A DNA stretch of 64,000 nucleotides, taken from contig NZ_JACSPO010000002.1 in the NCBI RefSeq assembly GCF_014837105.1, forward strand, positions 1 to 64,000, given 5' to 3'. Below the pieces are notes generated by a model. That model searched no databases, had not been told where the DNA came from, and was given only the letters and a program-made list of their open reading frames with translations. The position numbers were made by a program, and so were the translations under genes. This document shows positions 15,409-31,743 of this stretch, one piece after another. The stretch comes from Oceanitalea stevensii (GTDB lineage: Bacteria; Actinomycetota; Actinomycetes; Actinomycetales; Actinomycetaceae). Within the stretch, counting starts at the first letter, position 1. Each line of letters opens with the position of its first letter.

Positions 15409-18400
15409 TCAGCGACCCCAGACGGTGTCGATGTCCAGACCCGGCAGGTAGCCGTGGTCACCGCTGTACGTCGCCGTGAGCAGGGTCAGCCCCCGCACCG
15501 GCGGCAGCTGCACCTCGGCGCTGCCGTCCTCACCGACCGGCACCGTCCCGACGACGCGGAACCCGGCGGTCACCGTGACCGTGCCCGTGGGGGTCGGCGC
15601 GCCGTCCCGTCCGGACACGTCGATGGTGACGTCCGGGGTGCTGCCCCGGGGGACCGTCGAGTCCACGTCGATGTCCACCCGCGAGAGGGCGGGCAGGACG
15701 ACGTAGGTGACGGCGCGGCTGGCCGACTCGGTGAAGCCGTCACTGCCGGGGAACACGGCCGTGAGGCGGTGCCCGCCCGCGGGCAGGTCCCGCGGCAGCG
15801 CCACCGACGCCCGTCCGTCGGGCCCGAGCTCACCGGTGGCGACGACCTCGCCGTCGGCGTGGATCTCCACCGTTCCCGACGGCGTCCCGGAGTCGGCGGC
15901 GACGGTCACCCGCGCCGTCGTCTCCGCGCCGTAGGTGGCGAGCTGGCGGGACAGGCTCAGCGACGTCGTCGTGGCGACGTCCTCCTGCGGCGCGGCCGGG
16001 ACGGAGACGACGAGGTCGCGCATCCGCCCGGTGTTGTCGAAGGAGCCGAAGCCGATCTGACCGGAGTCGAAGGTCGTGTCGGTCGCCGTCATGAGCGGGG
16101 TGTCGTGGCCGTCGACCCACACGGCGATCTCGCCGCTGCCGGCGCAGTGGACGACGCGGACGTCGTGCCACTCCTCGTCGGTGATGGCGGGGGGCGCGCC
16201 GATCGAGCTGTCGGGGTCCCACTGGTGGTCGATGCGCTCCCGGTCCTTGTTGTTCACCTTGAAGATGCCGTTGTGCGCGTAGATCGTGTTGTCCTGCGAG
16301 ATGTGCGCGTAGTAGTACTCGGTGTCGGACTGCCAGCCGAAGACGATGATGATGTCCCGGTTGTTCACCGACGACGGGGCGTCGAGGCGGACCTCGGCGT
16401 CGATCTGCACCGACTCGTACTCCCGGCCGTCGAGGATCGCGTACTCGAAGGGACGACGGATGCCGTCGTTCGGGTTGTCCCCGACCTCGGTGAGCACGAT
16501 CTGGTCACCCGGGAAGTCCCACTTCGAGGGCGTCCGCGGGGCCCAGTTCTCCTCGGCCATGAGGTCGGTCTCGGACTCCTCGAAGGTGCACGACGGCGTG
16601 GGCGGCGGCTCGACCGGCTCGACGCCGTACGTCGCGTACAGGTGCTGCATCTGCTCCGCGGTGGGGACCATGTCGAGGAACATGAGGTCGTCCATGCGCC
16701 CGTTGAACGGGTTCCGCTCCGCGGTGTTCTGCGGGAAGCTGCCGCCGATCTTGATGCCCGCGGGCACCGTGTCCGACGTCGGGCCCGAGCCCCACGGGTT
16801 CGCCGCGGTGTACTCGCCCTCGAGCTCCTCACCGTTCATGTAGAGCTTCATCTCGCCGTTGACGTAGTCGAAGCTCGCGGCGAGGTGCACCCAGGTGTTC
16901 TGGGCGAGGATCTCGTCCCACGGCTTGTCGGCCGCGAAGGTCCACGAGCTGCCGTCGTCGAGGCGGCGGCCGAGCGCGACGAGCTTGAGCTCGTTGCCCA
17001 CCTGGATGACCTCGAGGAGGGCACGCACGCCGTGGCCGTCGGAGTTGCCCGACAGGACGCCGGTGAGCCCGATGGCGTTGAAGCGGTCGTCCGGGTTGGC
17101 GGACTCGCTGTTGAGGGCGGGCAGCTCACCGGTGCGCTTGAACCAGCCCATGACGGTGATCGCCTCGGCCCCGGCGAAGGCGTCGAGGGAGTCGACGCCG
17201 GCGGGGTCGTAGACGCCGGCCTTCCAGTCGTTGTTGCCGCGGACCGTGGGGTTGAGCTGCTGGGTCTGCAGCGCCCGACCGGCGCCGGGGTAGGCGGCGT
17301 CGGCCACGCGCTGGAGCGCGCCACCGTTGATGAGCTCGATGTCGGTGCCGGAGAAGCCCTGGTCGTCCTCCCAGGCCGGGTTCCCCTCGACCGGGTTGTC
17401 GAAGGTGTAGCGCGCGACGAGGTTGTTCGGCGGCAGCTCGACCGCGCCGGTGACCTCCCAGACGCGACCGTCGGCCTTGGAGATGAGGTAGAGCTCGCCG
17501 TCGGCGTCCGCGCCGAAGCGCAGGTCCACCCGCTGGTGCCCGACGAGCTCCTGGAAGGTGGTCTCCTCGCCGTCGTGGAAGACACGGAGCTGCTCGATGG
17601 TGGCGAGGTCCTCGATGTCGCCGTCGTTGCGGACCATCTCGTCGGCCTCGGTCGACAGCACCCAGCCGCGGACGATGTCCGTGAACAGGTACTTGCCCTG
17701 GAGCGCCTCGATCTCGCCGCGGTAGACGTACCCGCCGTTGACGGCCACGCCGGCGTCACCGGTCTGGCCGGGGTCGCGGTTGTGGTCGTAGGCGGCGACG
17801 GGGTAGGTGAAGCCGAGCTCGGCGTCGTTCTCCGGCAGCGGGAAGATCTGCCGGTTCTCGGCGAGGAAGGGTCCCTCGCGCACGGACCAGCCGAAGTTGT
17901 CACCCGGCTGGACCTCGTAGATCGACTCGACCTGCCACTCACCGATGTGACCGAGGTACATCTTCCCGGTCTCGGTGTCCCAGCTGATGCGGTGCGGGTC
18001 GCGCATGCCGACGGCGTAGATCTCCGGCAGCGCGCCGTCCTCGTCGAGGAACGGGTTGTCCTCGGGGATGCCGTACTCGCCGTTGGCGCTGTCGTCACCC
18101 ATCGGGTCGATGCGGAAGATCTTGCCCTGCGGGGTGGACAGGTCCTGCGGGTTGTTGTTGCCCACGCCGTTGCCGCCGTCGCCGACGAGGATGTAGAGGT
18201 TGCCGTAGTCGGCGTCGCCGGGCTCGGCGGTCCAGTTGAAGGCGATCTGCTGGACGGTGTGGACGCGCCCGCCGAACGGCACGCGCATCATCTCGCGGCT
18301 CGTGCCCTCGAAGGTCTCGGCGCTCGGATCCGTGGCGGTCCACTCGGTGATGACGCTGTGGAAGCCGGTGGTGCCGAAGCCCGGGAAGTCCGGGGTGTCC

Positions 18401-28150: not shown

Positions 28151-30544
28151 TCAGCCGAGCTGGGCCCGCACCTTCTGCGCCGCCGCCACGAGGTGGCGCA
28201 GGCTGGGCTCGACCTCGTCGTAGCCGCGGGTCTTGAGGCCGCAGTCGGGGTTGACCCACAGCAGCTGCGGGGGCACCGACTCGGCCGCGAGCGCCACGAG
28301 CTCGGCCACCTCCTCCTCGCTCGGCACGCGCGGGGAGTGGATGTCGTAGACGCCCGGCCCCACGCCGCGGGCGAAGCCGGCGGCCTGCAGCTCGGGCAGC
28401 ACCTCCATCCGGGAGCGCGCGGCCTCGATGCTCGTGACGTCCGCGTCCAGCGCGTCGATCGCACCGATGACCTCGCCGAACTCCGAGTAGCACAGGTGGG
28501 TGTGCACCTGGGTGGCGGGGGCGGCGACCGCCGTCGCCAGCCGGAAGGCGCCCACCGACCACTCGAGGTACGCCGCGTGGTGCTCCGCGCGCAGCGGCAG
28601 GAGCTCGCGCAGCGCGGGCTCGTCGACCTGGATGACACCGATCCCCGCGGCCTCGAGGTCGGCGACCTCGTCGCGCAGCGCGAGCGCCACCTGCGCCGCG
28701 GTGTCCGCCAGCGGCTGGTCGTCGCGCACGAAGGACCACGCGAGGATCGTCACCGGGCCGGTGAGCATGCCCTTGACGGGCTTGTCGGTGAGCGAGGCGG
28801 CGTGCCGGGACCACTCGACGGTGATCGGCGCGGGCCGCGCGACGTCACCCCAGAGGATCGAGGGCCGCGTGCAGCGGGTCCCGTAGGACTGCACCCACCC
28901 GTTCTCGGTGACCGCGAAGCCCTCGAGGTTCTCGGCGAAGTACTGGACCATGTCGTTGCGCTCGGGCTCCCCGTGGACGAGGACGTCCAGGCCCAGGTCC
29001 TCCTGGAGCCGTACGACGCGCTCGATCTCCTCGCGCATCGCGGCCGTGTACTCCTCGGCGCTCAGCTCGCCGCGGCCGTACGCGGCCCGCGCACGGCGGA
29101 TCTCGACGGTCTGCGGGAAGGAGCCGATCGTCGTCGTCGGCAGGGGCGGGAGGTCGAGGACCTCGGCCTGCGCGGCCGCACGCTCGGCGAAGGGGGCGCG
29201 GCTGCGGTCCGCGTCGGTGAGCGCGGCGACGCGGTCGCGGACGTCCGCCCGCCGCACGCCCGGGTGCTCGAGGCGGCTGCGACGGCGGTCCGCGGCGGCC
29301 GCGAAGGCGCCCTTCGCGGCGTCACGGCCCTGGGTGAGGGCCGTCGCGAGCGCGAGGACCTCCTCGACCTTCTGGTCGGCGAAAGCGAGCCAGCTGCTCA
29401 GCTGCGGGTCGAGCCGCGTCTCCGCGCCGACGTCGTAGGGCACGTGCTGCAGGGACGTCGAGGTGGCCACGCACAGGCCGCCGTCACGCGCGGCGCCGGC
29501 GGGCAGTCCCGCCTCGAGCTCCTGCAGGCGCTCGAGCGCGGCGTCCAGGTCGGTCCGCCACACGTTGCGTCCGTCGACCGCCCCCGCCACGACGACGGCG
29601 TCGCCCAGCTGGGAGAGCACCTCACCGGACGGCACCCCACCGCGGACGAGGTCGAGGCCCACGGCCTCGACGCCGGCCCGGGCCAGGACGGGCAGCGCGT
29701 CCTCCGCGGGCCCGTAGGCGACCGGCACGAAGAGGGCGGGCCGCTCGGGCCGCGTCGTCTCGGCCGCCAGCACGGTGTAGGCGCGCTCGACGGCGGCGAG
29801 CACCCGCTCGCGGGGCACCCCCCAGTCGACAGCGAGCGCCGGCTCCTCGAGCTGCAGCCACGGCGCCCCGACGCCACCCAGCGCGTGGAGCAGGTCGACG
29901 TAGGCGGGCAGGACGTCCTCGAGGCGGTCGAGCGGCGTGAAGCCCTCCGGCGGCGCGGCCGCGGGTGCGGCGCCGTCGCCCGGGTCCTCCGCGGCCACGG
30001 CCTTGCTCAGCAGGAGGAAGGTCACCGGCCCGACGACGACGGGGCGGGTGGTCACGCCCTCGGCCGCCGCCTCGAGGAAGAGCCGCTCGACGCGGTCGTC
30101 GGACAGCCGGAACCGGGTCTGCGGGCTGATCTCGGGGACGAGGTAGTGGTAGTTCGTGTCGAACCACTTCGTCATCTCCAGCGGCGGCCGCTCCCCCTCG
30201 CCCCGGGCCACGGTGAAGTACCCGGGCAGGTCGAGGGCGCCGTCGTCGTCGAGGAGGTGCGCGAACCGGGGCGGGACGGCGCCGAGGGTGACGGCGGTGT
30301 CGAGCACCTGGTCGTAGAAGGTGAAGTCGCACGGGATGGAGGCGTCGTCCGGGGCGAGGCCGAGGTCGACGAGGCGGCCCCGCTGGCGACGGCGCAGGTC
30401 GGCCGCGGCGATCTGGAGGTCGTCGAGCTCGCTGCGGCCGGCCCAGAAGGACTCCACCGCCCGCTTGAGCTCGCGCCGTGGCCCGATCCGCGGGTAGCCG
30501 AGAATGGTGGCGGCGGGCAGCTGGGGCGCGGTGCGGTCGGTCAT
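28151..30544 (-). CDS. metE: Cobalamin-independent methionine synthase
   Basis: 797 residues, full family length. It moves a methyl group from methyl-tetrahydropteroyl-triglutamate to homocysteine. N-terminal folate-barrel copy: ILGYPRIGPRRELKRAVESF; C-terminal catalytic barrel: TTTIGSFPQTVEIR, HGEPERNDMVQYF, then the zinc ligands in VHTHLCYSEF and LLWVNPDCGLKTR. The ATG overlaps the metF stop by four bases (ATGA). It is controlled together with metF by the upstream SAM-riboswitch-like leader. A long hairpin beyond the stop ends the operon. Confidence 0.96.
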   Translation of the reverse strand: MTDRTAPQLPAATILGYPRIGPRRELKRAVESFWAGRSELDDLQIAAADLRRRQRGRLVDLGLAPDDASIPCDFTFYDQVLDTAVTLGAVPPRFAHLLDDDGALDLPGYFTVARGEGERPPLEMTKWFDTNYHYLVPEISPQTRFRLSDDRVERLFLEAAAEGVTTRPVVVGPVTFLLLSKAVAAEDPGDGAAPAAAPPEGFTPLDRLEDVLPAYVDLLHALGGVGAPWLQLEEPALAVDWGVPRERVLAAVERAYTVLAAETTRPERPALFVPVAYGPAEDALPVLARAGVEAVGLDLVRGGVPSGEVLSQLGDAVVVAGAVDGRNVWRTDLDAALERLQELEAGLPAGAARDGGLCVATSTSLQHVPYDVGAETRLDPQLSSWLAFADQKVEEVLALATALTQGRDAAKGAFAAAADRRRSRLEHPGVRRADVRDRVAALTDADRSRAPFAERAAAQAEVLDLPPLPTTTIGSFPQTVEIRRARAAYGRGELSAEEYTAAMREEIERVVRLQEDLGLDVLVHGEPERNDMVQYFAENLEGFAVTENGWVQSYGTRCTRPSILWGDVARPAPITVEWSRHAASLTDKPVKGMLTGPVTILAWSFVRDDQPLADTAAQVALALRDEVADLEAAGIGVIQVDEPALRELLPLRAEHHAAYLEWSVGAFRLATAVAAPATQVHTHLCYSEFGEVIGAIDALDADVTSIEAARSRMEVLPELQAAGFARGVGPGVYDIHSPRVPSEEEVAELVALAAESVPPQLLWVNPDCGLKTRGYDEVEPSLRHLVAAAQKVRAQLG

Positions 30545-31458
30545 GAGATCGTCCTCGGGCTCGTGGTGGACAGCGGGCGGCGGAGGCGCTCGACGACGTC
30601 GAGGGCCGGCCGGTACTGGTTGAACGTGAACAGGTGCAGGCCGGGGGCGCCGGCGGAGACGACGTCCTCCACCAGCGCGACGGTCGCGTCGATGCCGATG
30701 CGGTGGCGCTCCTCGTCGTCGGCGGCCGCGGTGAGGCGGTCGAGCAGCACCTCGGGGACCGGGACGCCGGTGAGCTGGGCCAGCCGGCGCAGCCGCCGAG
30801 GGTCGGTCATCGGGATGATGCCGGCGACGAGCGGGAGCACCACCCCGGCGGCGCGGGCCTCCTCGACCAGCCCGACGTAGGCGGCGACGTCGTAGAAGAC
30901 CTGCGTGATGGCGAAGTCCGCGCCGGCCGCCTGCTTGTCACGCAGGGCGACGACGTCCTGCGTGCGGGTGTGGCTCACGCCGGCGGGGTAGGCGGCGACG
31001 GCGACGCTCAGCACCCCGGTGGTGCCGAAGCGCGCCAGCTCCGCCGCCCGGATGAGCGCGACGAGCTCGGCGGTGGTGTTGACGCCGTCGGGCTGCGGCA
31101 CCCACGTCGGCTGGTCGGCCGGTGGGTCGCCGCGCAGCGCGAGGAAGTCGCGGACGCCGTCGTCGATGAGCTCGTCGACGAACTGCACGAGCTCGGCGCG
31201 GGTGGAGCCGACGCAGGTGAGGTGGGCGATCGGCGCGACGCTCGTCTCGGCGAGGATGCGGCGCACGAGGGCGCGTGAGGAGTCGCGGGTGGAGCCGGAG
31301 GCGCCGTAGGTGACCGAGAAGAAGTCCGGGGCCGCGGCGGCCAGACGCTCGACCGTCTCCCACGCCGTCGCCTCGCTGGCGGGCGTGCGTGGTGGGTACA
31401 GCTCGAATGAGACCGTCGGTCGTCCACGCGGCACGGTCACGAGGCTAGCGGTGCTCAA
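30541..31458 (-). CDS. metF: Methylenetetrahydrofolate reductase
   Basis: 305 residues, an FAD-dependent TIM barrel that makes 5-methyl-THF for MetE. The catalytic Glu lies in VSFELYPPRTP (the FEFFPPK equivalent, about 15-25), then DFFSVTYGASGSTRD and LALRGDPPADQP, which bind folate and FAD. The TTG at 31458 is taken as start because GGGAGAG, the 3' strand of the riboswitch, sits just ahead of it; GTG codons six and eight codons on are alternatives. The operon is metF-metE. Confidence 0.93.
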   Translation of the reverse strand: MSTASLVTVPRGRPTVSFELYPPRTPASEATAWETVERLAAAAPDFFSVTYGASGSTRDSSRALVRRILAETSVAPIAHLTCVGSTRAELVQFVDELIDDGVRDFLALRGDPPADQPTWVPQPDGVNTTAELVALIRAAELARFGTTGVLSVAVAAYPAGVSHTRTQDVVALRDKQAAGADFAITQVFYDVAAYVGLVEEARAAGVVLPLVAGIIPMTDPRRLRRLAQLTGVPVPEVLLDRLTAAADDEERHRIGIDATVALVEDVVSAGAPGLHLFTFNQYRPALDVVERLRRPLSTTSPRTIS

Positions 31459-31461
31459 GAG

Positions 31462-31561
31462 GTCTCTCCCATCGGGCCTGGCGGAAGCACCCGCACCCGT
31501 GTGACGGGGGGTTGCTGCGGCGTCGTCGAGCCAGGACTCTCGGCCGCTCTGGATGGTGAGT
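31462..31561 (-). promoter_or_regulatory. SAM-riboswitch-like leader (SAM-I / SAM-IV clan) of metF-metE
   Basis: Read on the minus strand the leader contains, in the right order, AUCCAGAG, then GGCCGAGAGUCCUGGC, then GACGACGCCGCAGCAACC, a C-rich/G-rich hairpin, GGUGCUUCC and CCCGAUGGGAG. These correspond to the S-box core (GAG..GAGGGA.CUGGC, GAUGA.GCC..GCAACC, GGUGC..UCC, GAU before the closing stem). The 5' strand CUC-A-CC can pair with GGGAG to close P1 with one bulged A. The same GGGAGAG is the only ribosome site for metF, so SAM binding would hide it and shut translation. Which SAM-clan class it is needs a covariance model. Confidence 0.78.
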
Positions 31562-31743
31562 GGATCGTCGCGGCGTGGTCACGGCACGGGCAAGGCTCAT
31601 CCGGGATGCGAGACCCGAGCCCCGTCCGGGCCCCGTCGATGAGACGGCTCTCACCGCTTCCTCACGGTGACCTCACGTGCCGAGGCTGAACTGGTGACGA
31701 TCCACCGGGACGGCCCGGAGGACCTCGAGAACAGGACATCGCC

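Follow-up and report, generated by a model that had tools for sequence, protein, structure and literature searches.

A putative SAM-I riboswitch ahead of metF-metE

The window (the whole stretch of DNA analysed, 64,000 nt from Oceanitalea stevensii) carries metF and metE on its minus strand, preceded by a structured leader. The metF protein matches PF02219 at 236 bits and scores 247.1 bits against TIGR00676, under that model's cutoff of 293.7. The metE protein matches TIGR01371 at 936.6 bits (cutoff 929.95), together with PF08267 and PF01717. By coordinates, the ATG of metE and the stop codon of metF share four bases, ATGA, suggesting that translation of the two genes is coupled.

A cmscan search against Rfam gave a minus-strand match to RF00162 (Rfam SAM, SAM-I) at 31560-31466, with 49.2 bits (gathering score, 44.4 bits) and an E-value of 3e-8 for 64 kb. 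RF00162 was the sole Rfam family at gathering threshold in the whole 64-kb window. An S-box-type leader ahead of metF-metE had been proposed in an earlier note at 31462-31561; the leader is borne out, and cmscan places the aptamer itself at 31560-31466 on the minus strand. This RNA looks like a genuine SAM-sensing switch, and its parts are as follows.

31466-31560, minus strand: compact SAM-I aptamer without P4 (RF00162)
31552-31560, minus strand: P1 5' strand, CUC-a-CCAUC with one bulged A (cmscan alignment and MFE fold)
31543-31547, minus strand: P2 5' strand, GCGGC (pairs with 31521-31517)
31522-31542, minus strand: kink-turn (CGA / GACGAC), P2b and loop L2 (63 of the 67 rows keep the tandem G.A letters)
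31539-31537 with 31530-31528, minus strand: P2b, GAG with CUC (99.5% paired)
31531-31535, minus strand: PK-1 5' strand, CCUGG, in L2 (pairs with 31481-31477; covariation)
31517-31521, minus strand: P2 3' strand, GCCGC (alignment pairing)
31510-31516, minus strand: P3 5' strand, AGCAACC, with SAM-pocket letters
31486-31491, minus strand: P3 3' strand, GGUGCU, with SAM-pocket letters
31477-31481, minus strand: PK-1 3' strand, CCAGG (covariation)
31474-31476, minus strand: linker CCC, 3 nt, where other SAM-I RNAs have P4
31466-31473, minus strand: P1 3' strand, GAUGGGAG, holding the Shine-Dalgarno (SD) sequence (cmscan, alignment pairing and MFE fold)
31464-31470, minus strand: SD sequence GGGAGAG (position and spacing to TTG)
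31456-31458, minus strand: metF start codon TTG
30541-31458, minus strand: metF, methylenetetrahydrofolate reductase
28151-30544, minus strand: metE, cobalamin-independent methionine synthase

GGGAG, the first part of the SD sequence, forms the final five bases of the P1 3' strand (31473-31466), and the TTG comes 7 nt after it. P1 of the window itself reaches over GGGAG, with one bulged A. Thus, a ribosome-binding site (RBS) inside the closing stem, as the earlier note had read it, is confirmed. The TTG start right after this site also held up, being supported by the start codons of relatives at the same aligned position: TTG in three genomes of the same genus (G001, G003 and G004), GTG in G002, and ATG in G005 and G007.

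Only three bases separate PK-1 from the 3' strand of P1, and P4 is therefore absent, which corrects the earlier impression that P4-type elements look short. The sole possible mini-stem, a 2-bp mini-P4, was rejected: it is 80% paired, with covariation no better than that of shuffles, and its 3' letters pair instead in PK-1, with covariation.

The compact aptamer is conserved in relatives

Under strict filters (E<=0.01), 67 RF00162 matches were obtained in 34 of 59 genomes, comprising the window's own and 33 of 58 relatives. The alignment took in every one of the 67, and pairing statistics were computed on the 65 distinct rows. The G of J1/2 and the GCAAC and GUGC of P3 are identical in 67/67 leaders, and a sequence test found the kink-turn GA/GA letters in 63/67. 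The linker between PK-1 and P1 measures 3 nt in 62 leaders, 2 nt in three and 4 nt in two; P4 is present in none.

The P2 helix is 99.7% paired, and four of its five pairs show changes on both sides. PK-1 consists of 5 bp, with a sixth pair possible. In the 65 rows, 99.7% of its cells are paired, and three pairs have changed on both sides (20 such cells). None of 500 shuffles matched the PK-1 covariation score, a count that is no probability because the rows are related; for further pair types, 58 of 500 shuffles reached the observed number. The inner five pairs of P1 are held in nearly all distinct rows, and the three outer pairs are mostly unpaired.

The near-invariant core and the compensated pairs across the order make it extremely improbable that the element is a degenerate, non-functional relic, as its score of just 4.8 bits above the gathering score might be taken to mean. 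The lack of P4 agrees with this low score: among the 67 compact leaders, 18 lie under the Rfam gathering score, and a model built from the 67 leaders (R1) gives the window site 97.6 bits, the window sequence being part of its training set.

The same genome holds two more RF00162 matches, three in total, and both others fall under the gathering score. These compact SAM-I riboswitches lie at G000:C22:226425-226510 (plus strand, 43.9 bits) and G000:C26:42985-43070 (plus strand, 42.7 bits). By the best models for the first 60 residues, they are followed by MetN-like and O-succinylhomoserine sulfhydrylase-like genes, respectively. Standard annotation can thus miss part of the actinobacterial sulfur regulon, since two of the three matches in this genome, like the 18 leaders above, are under the gathering score.

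A P4-less variant of SAM-I

The window RNA has the model score, the kink-turn letters, a PK-1 between L2 and J3/4, and the J1/2 and P3 pocket letters of SAM-I; the P4 helix of the four-stem SAM-I architecture was not found. On these sequence features we treat it as a variant of SAM-I that lacks P4, not as a standard member. With SAM-I (RF00162) it shares P1, P2 with the kink-turn, P3, PK-1, the SAM-pocket letters and the association with methionine genes. It differs in having a linker (2-4 nt among the leaders) in place of P4, in its 5-bp PK-1 and in having the SD sequence in P1 rather than a terminator.

The earlier note had suggested a SAM-I/IV intermediate. Its SAM-type riboswitch stands, by the Rfam SAM model match, and the SAM-I/IV membership does not, as RF01725 gave no match in this genome at E<=10, PK-1 and the kink-turn are present, and P4 is absent. 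The idea of an intermediate otherwise has some merit: an RNA with kink-turn and PK-1 and without P4 lies architecturally between SAM-I and SAM-IV. There is no room for P5 or PK-2 in the window RNA between P1 and the start codon (7 nt); PK-2 also belongs to SAM-I/IV riboswitches. According to the available text of PMC6890682, SAM-I has the kink-turn and P4, and SAM-IV lacks P4 and carries P5 and PK-2, both of which sit 3' of P1. SAM-I/IV, as defined in parts of PMC6890682 and PMC2864571, has P4 and an undivided P2, and lacks PK-1 and the P2 internal loop. Of its features, the window RNA shares the SAM core. With SAM-IV (RF00634) the window RNA shares the missing P4, the 5-bp PK-1 and the SAM core, but SAM-IV differs in carrying P5 and PK-2 and in lacking a kink-turn of the SAM-I type (PMC6890682, available text).

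It is quite unlikely that the element belongs to SAM-I/IV or SAM-IV, or is a direct transitional form, rather than a SAM-I riboswitch. The absence of P4 and the 5-bp PK-1 are SAM-IV-like (PMC6890682, available text), a SAM-IV element over the cutoff occurs elsewhere in the genome (59.2 bits), and two of the 67 leaders have a shortened P2 internal loop. However, no RF01725 match at E<=10 was found in this genome (49 candidates scored), and the RF00634 match list of the genome, for which 150 of 1884 first-look candidates were scored, does not include the window site. In a sensitive cmscan of 401 bases, RF00162 was the only family reported, with the best family kept per clan. Moreover, the kink-turn letters are present in 63/67 leaders, and P5 and PK-2 of SAM-IV lie 3' of P1, where the window RNA has its start codon, 7 nt after P1. 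On model searches and anatomy together, membership of both classes was rejected. As a separate observation, the two leaders with the shortened loop (L065 and L069) lack the kink-turn letters and are a further step towards a SAM-IV-like shape.

The J1/2 and P3 pocket letters would contact SAM; part of these contacts by the conserved letters is described in the available text of PMC3764141. SAM-I variants that sense spermidine exist, which differ in J1/2 and in the internal loop of P3 and frequently stand before polyamine genes (PMC10853860, in part), so that another ligand might be considered. This is very unlikely at the present locus: none of the 67 leaders departs from the J1/2 G or the P3 core, and the genes are methionine genes. 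A spermidine-type variant is not supported.

Predicted control of metF translation by SAM

We consider it very probable that the SAM-I riboswitch controls translation initiation directly and thereby represses metF-metE. That SAM controls translation here, as the earlier note predicted, is supported to this extent by the aptamer match, the P1 pairing, the start codon and the conservation of the SD sequence within P1. In 63 of the 67 leaders an SD sequence overlaps P1 and is followed, at normal spacing, by a start codon; four leaders fail this test. The same test was passed by 803 of 3300 controls (24%) that joined real P1 ends to random downstream DNA and by 75 of 3300 random positions (2.3%). 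The window has the hallmark of direct translation attenuation, an SD sequence inside the ligand-type helix next to the start codon. In relatives, the SD sequence often appears to be only partly covered, as the outer P1 pairs that face the rest of it are mostly unpaired.

When SAM is plentiful, it would bind the P1/P3 core and lock PK-1 and P1. Locked P1 would keep the GGGAG of the SD sequence paired, so that the 30S subunit could not start at the TTG at 31458. At low SAM, P1, being weak, would open and metF would be translated, and translation of metE would probably follow that of metF via coupling through the ATGA overlap. The predicted SAM-I targets of this genome comprise metF-metE and the MetN-like and O-succinylhomoserine sulfhydrylase-like genes.

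Blocked translation leads to polarity. The SAM-I fold might act mainly on transcription: blocking translation would be the first step only, and Rho, for example, would then terminate the untranslated metF mRNA. Read by eye, some of the P4-less SAM-I RNAs from distant families of the phylum have terminator-like sequence behind them. However, the space between P1 and the metF start is too short for an intrinsic terminator, and the SD sequence in P1 is kept in 63/67 leaders; we regard a mainly transcriptional action as unlikely, and direct control of initiation remains the preferred reading.

Folding calculations gave no clean two-state switch. The single-sequence fold of the 107-nt leader has the S-box secondary structure with a stability that is not unusual (z -0.37), and 143 nt reaching into metF fold otherwise (z +1.18). 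In ViennaRNA, run without ligand or pseudoknot, the P1 pairing of the window RNA was 0.99 for the isolated aptamer; adding 20, 35, 60 or 100 nt of downstream RNA gave 0.07, 0.02, 0.76 and 0.09, respectively. With 35 nt, the SD sequence was only 0.36 unpaired. These swings with length indicate that the folding model is length-sensitive.

Codons 2-3 of metF, AGCACC (window 31456-31450), form the complement of GGUGCU, the invariant P3 strand. An alignment of six sequences, those of the window and of five relatives, shows no change in them, though such codons may simply be frequent. A switch against P1 formed by these first codons, with AGCACC pairing to GGUGCU, was considered, ViennaRNA showing P1 displaced, and was rejected. 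Mean P1 pairing over the 67 leaders was 0.159 with shuffled downstream RNA, 0.124 with random coding RNA and 0.099 with native RNA; shuffled RNA thus displaces P1 nearly as well as native RNA, and no specific anti-P1 element is supported. AGCACC occurs within the first 40 nt in 10/67 leaders, and three other offsets gave 1/64 each, but related metF genes make up many of the 10, and these are common codons.

The principle of an RBS in P1 of SAM-I riboswitches is known, having been stated in 2007 by Barrick and Breaker (PMC2258182, available text). They describe the RBS on the 3' side of P1, direct translation attenuation and a high frequency in Actinobacteria; the window RNA resembles this group, translation attenuation being predicted for it. 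Loss of P4 is not mentioned in that text, figures aside. In the met SAM-I riboswitch of Xanthomonas campestris, which by experiment acts mainly on translation, a hairpin of the expression platform masks the SD sequence and senses initiator tRNA as well (PMC7270179, in part), whereas here P1 itself holds the SD sequence. According to the available text of a 2005 survey (PMC1262725), it seems to be a peculiarity of Actinobacteria that the base stem of a riboswitch overlaps the start site, and no conserved RNA structure was found before methionine operons in the genomes studied. In the texts searched, figures aside, we found no literature on a P4-less SAM-I or a SAM-I-controlled leader peptide, and a prior mention is possible. 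The compact P4-less build is of modest novelty. As a minimal translational SAM-I whose switching is directly testable, it may show which parts of the best-studied SAM riboswitch nature can spare.

P4 was probably lost more than once

In a sample of the phylum, RF00162 matches were present in 148 of 296 genomes, the window's own included, and 50 loci were read by eye for P4. A P4-sized hairpin insert was seen in all 30 loci listed with the phylum search and in four of the window's class. P4 is missing, with the canonical J3/4 kept, in 16 loci that were picked for short length and belong to other families of the phylum. From this reading by eye, P4 has probably been lost more than once. The arrangement of an SD sequence in P1 with a properly spaced start codon was found in 1/16 of the short P4-less loci, in 4/30 P4-bearing loci of the phylum and in 2/4 P4-bearing loci of the class; SD-in-P1 is therefore not confined to the compact form.

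R1 matches 162 of 296 class genomes at E<=1e-4, P4-bearing RNAs among them. Of 26 newly fetched loci read by eye, the 12 without P4 score at least 62.6 bits and the 14 with P4 at most 61.5 bits.

A pattern of the compact layout found at least 119 stretches in named genomes. The 80 loci listed, which by their titles we take to be all actinobacterial, include Rhodococcus, Arthrobacter, Nocardia, Lentzea, Amycolatopsis and Cellulomonas. Among their 82 matches, 73 have the SD arrangement in P1, and an exact 5-nt PK-1 complement is present in 59 and absent in 23, wobble pairs not being counted.

Short open reading frames behind the switch

The first open reading frame (ORF) is shorter than 70 codons in 36 of these 82 matches. 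Reading the list, we found that 22 of the 36 short ORFs encode a basic stretch followed by (V/I/L)D and usually C-R, such as RRRHIDLCR and TRRRVVDQCRR. In 22 matches among L170-L243, from Rhodococcus, Lentzea, Amycolatopsis, Pseudonocardia and other named genera, and in L036, L038, L006, L043, L051, L007, L121 and L122, all outside the window, the SD sequence in P1 starts an ORF of ~20-47 codons. These ORFs resemble the cysteine leader peptides NCBIfam NF042934, Ms4527A and Ms5788A and stand before sulfur or transport genes.

The NF042934 model ("putative leader peptide") has a cutoff of 27 bits, which was reached by 3/10 peptides of one set (34.5, 29.3 and 27.1), 1/6 of another (29.5) and 0/5 of a third, the set of five including a SAM-IV-linked peptide; most of the others lie below it. 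By codon-position composition, the likeliest next gene mostly starts 103-322 nt after the riboswitch. Several of these genes look like metN or homocysteine synthase, identities read from the sequence with one start tested by model. This arrangement suggests that the SAM riboswitch gates a cysteine leader peptide, and nested SAM and cysteine control at such loci is possible.

We put forward the following synthesis tentatively, at somewhat below even confidence: Actinobacteria hold a compact P4-less SAM-I subclass whose extended PK-1 stands in for P4 in the tertiary structure and whose P1 also hides the SD sequence. It would form an architectural, perhaps evolutionary, bridge from SAM-I to SAM-IV, and in many genera its SD sequence would drive a cysteine leader peptide before sulfur genes rather than the gene itself, as a nested SAM-plus-cysteine sensor. 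The SAM riboswitch that, judging from the relatives, often precedes a cysteine leader peptide is perhaps the more interesting lead.

The SAM-IV riboswitch of the same genome lies at G000:C28:102628-102752 (minus strand, L033/L070, 59.2 bits). It is followed by a 28-codon ORF that is rich in Cys and Met and has no NCBIfam match; this ORF resembles the metL peptide before metNIQ in Streptomyces lividans (PMC8079986, available text).

Promoter and candidate operator

TANNNT starts at -12, -11 and -10 from P1 in 13, 10 and 7 leaders, respectively, and in 0-3 at each other scanned position. This motif ~10-12 nt upstream of P1 makes P1, or a point just ahead of it, the probable start of transcription. 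In the window, GACGAT stands at this place, a poor match. Upstream of the presumed promoter lies a further element.

31599-31614, minus strand: candidate operator, GTCTCRNNNNNYGGAY

With a slightly looser motif, close to GTCTCR-N5-YGGAY, an operator-like element was found 54-58 nt upstream of P1 in 17 of the 67 leaders, 12 of them from the window's genus, and at none of 60,753 mostly coding downstream positions. The exact pattern has 15 sites in the genome versus 2 for the reversed pattern. We regard the motif as a candidate operator of a regulator of metF and metN. A further site of the exact pattern lies at window 18314-18329, on the plus strand.
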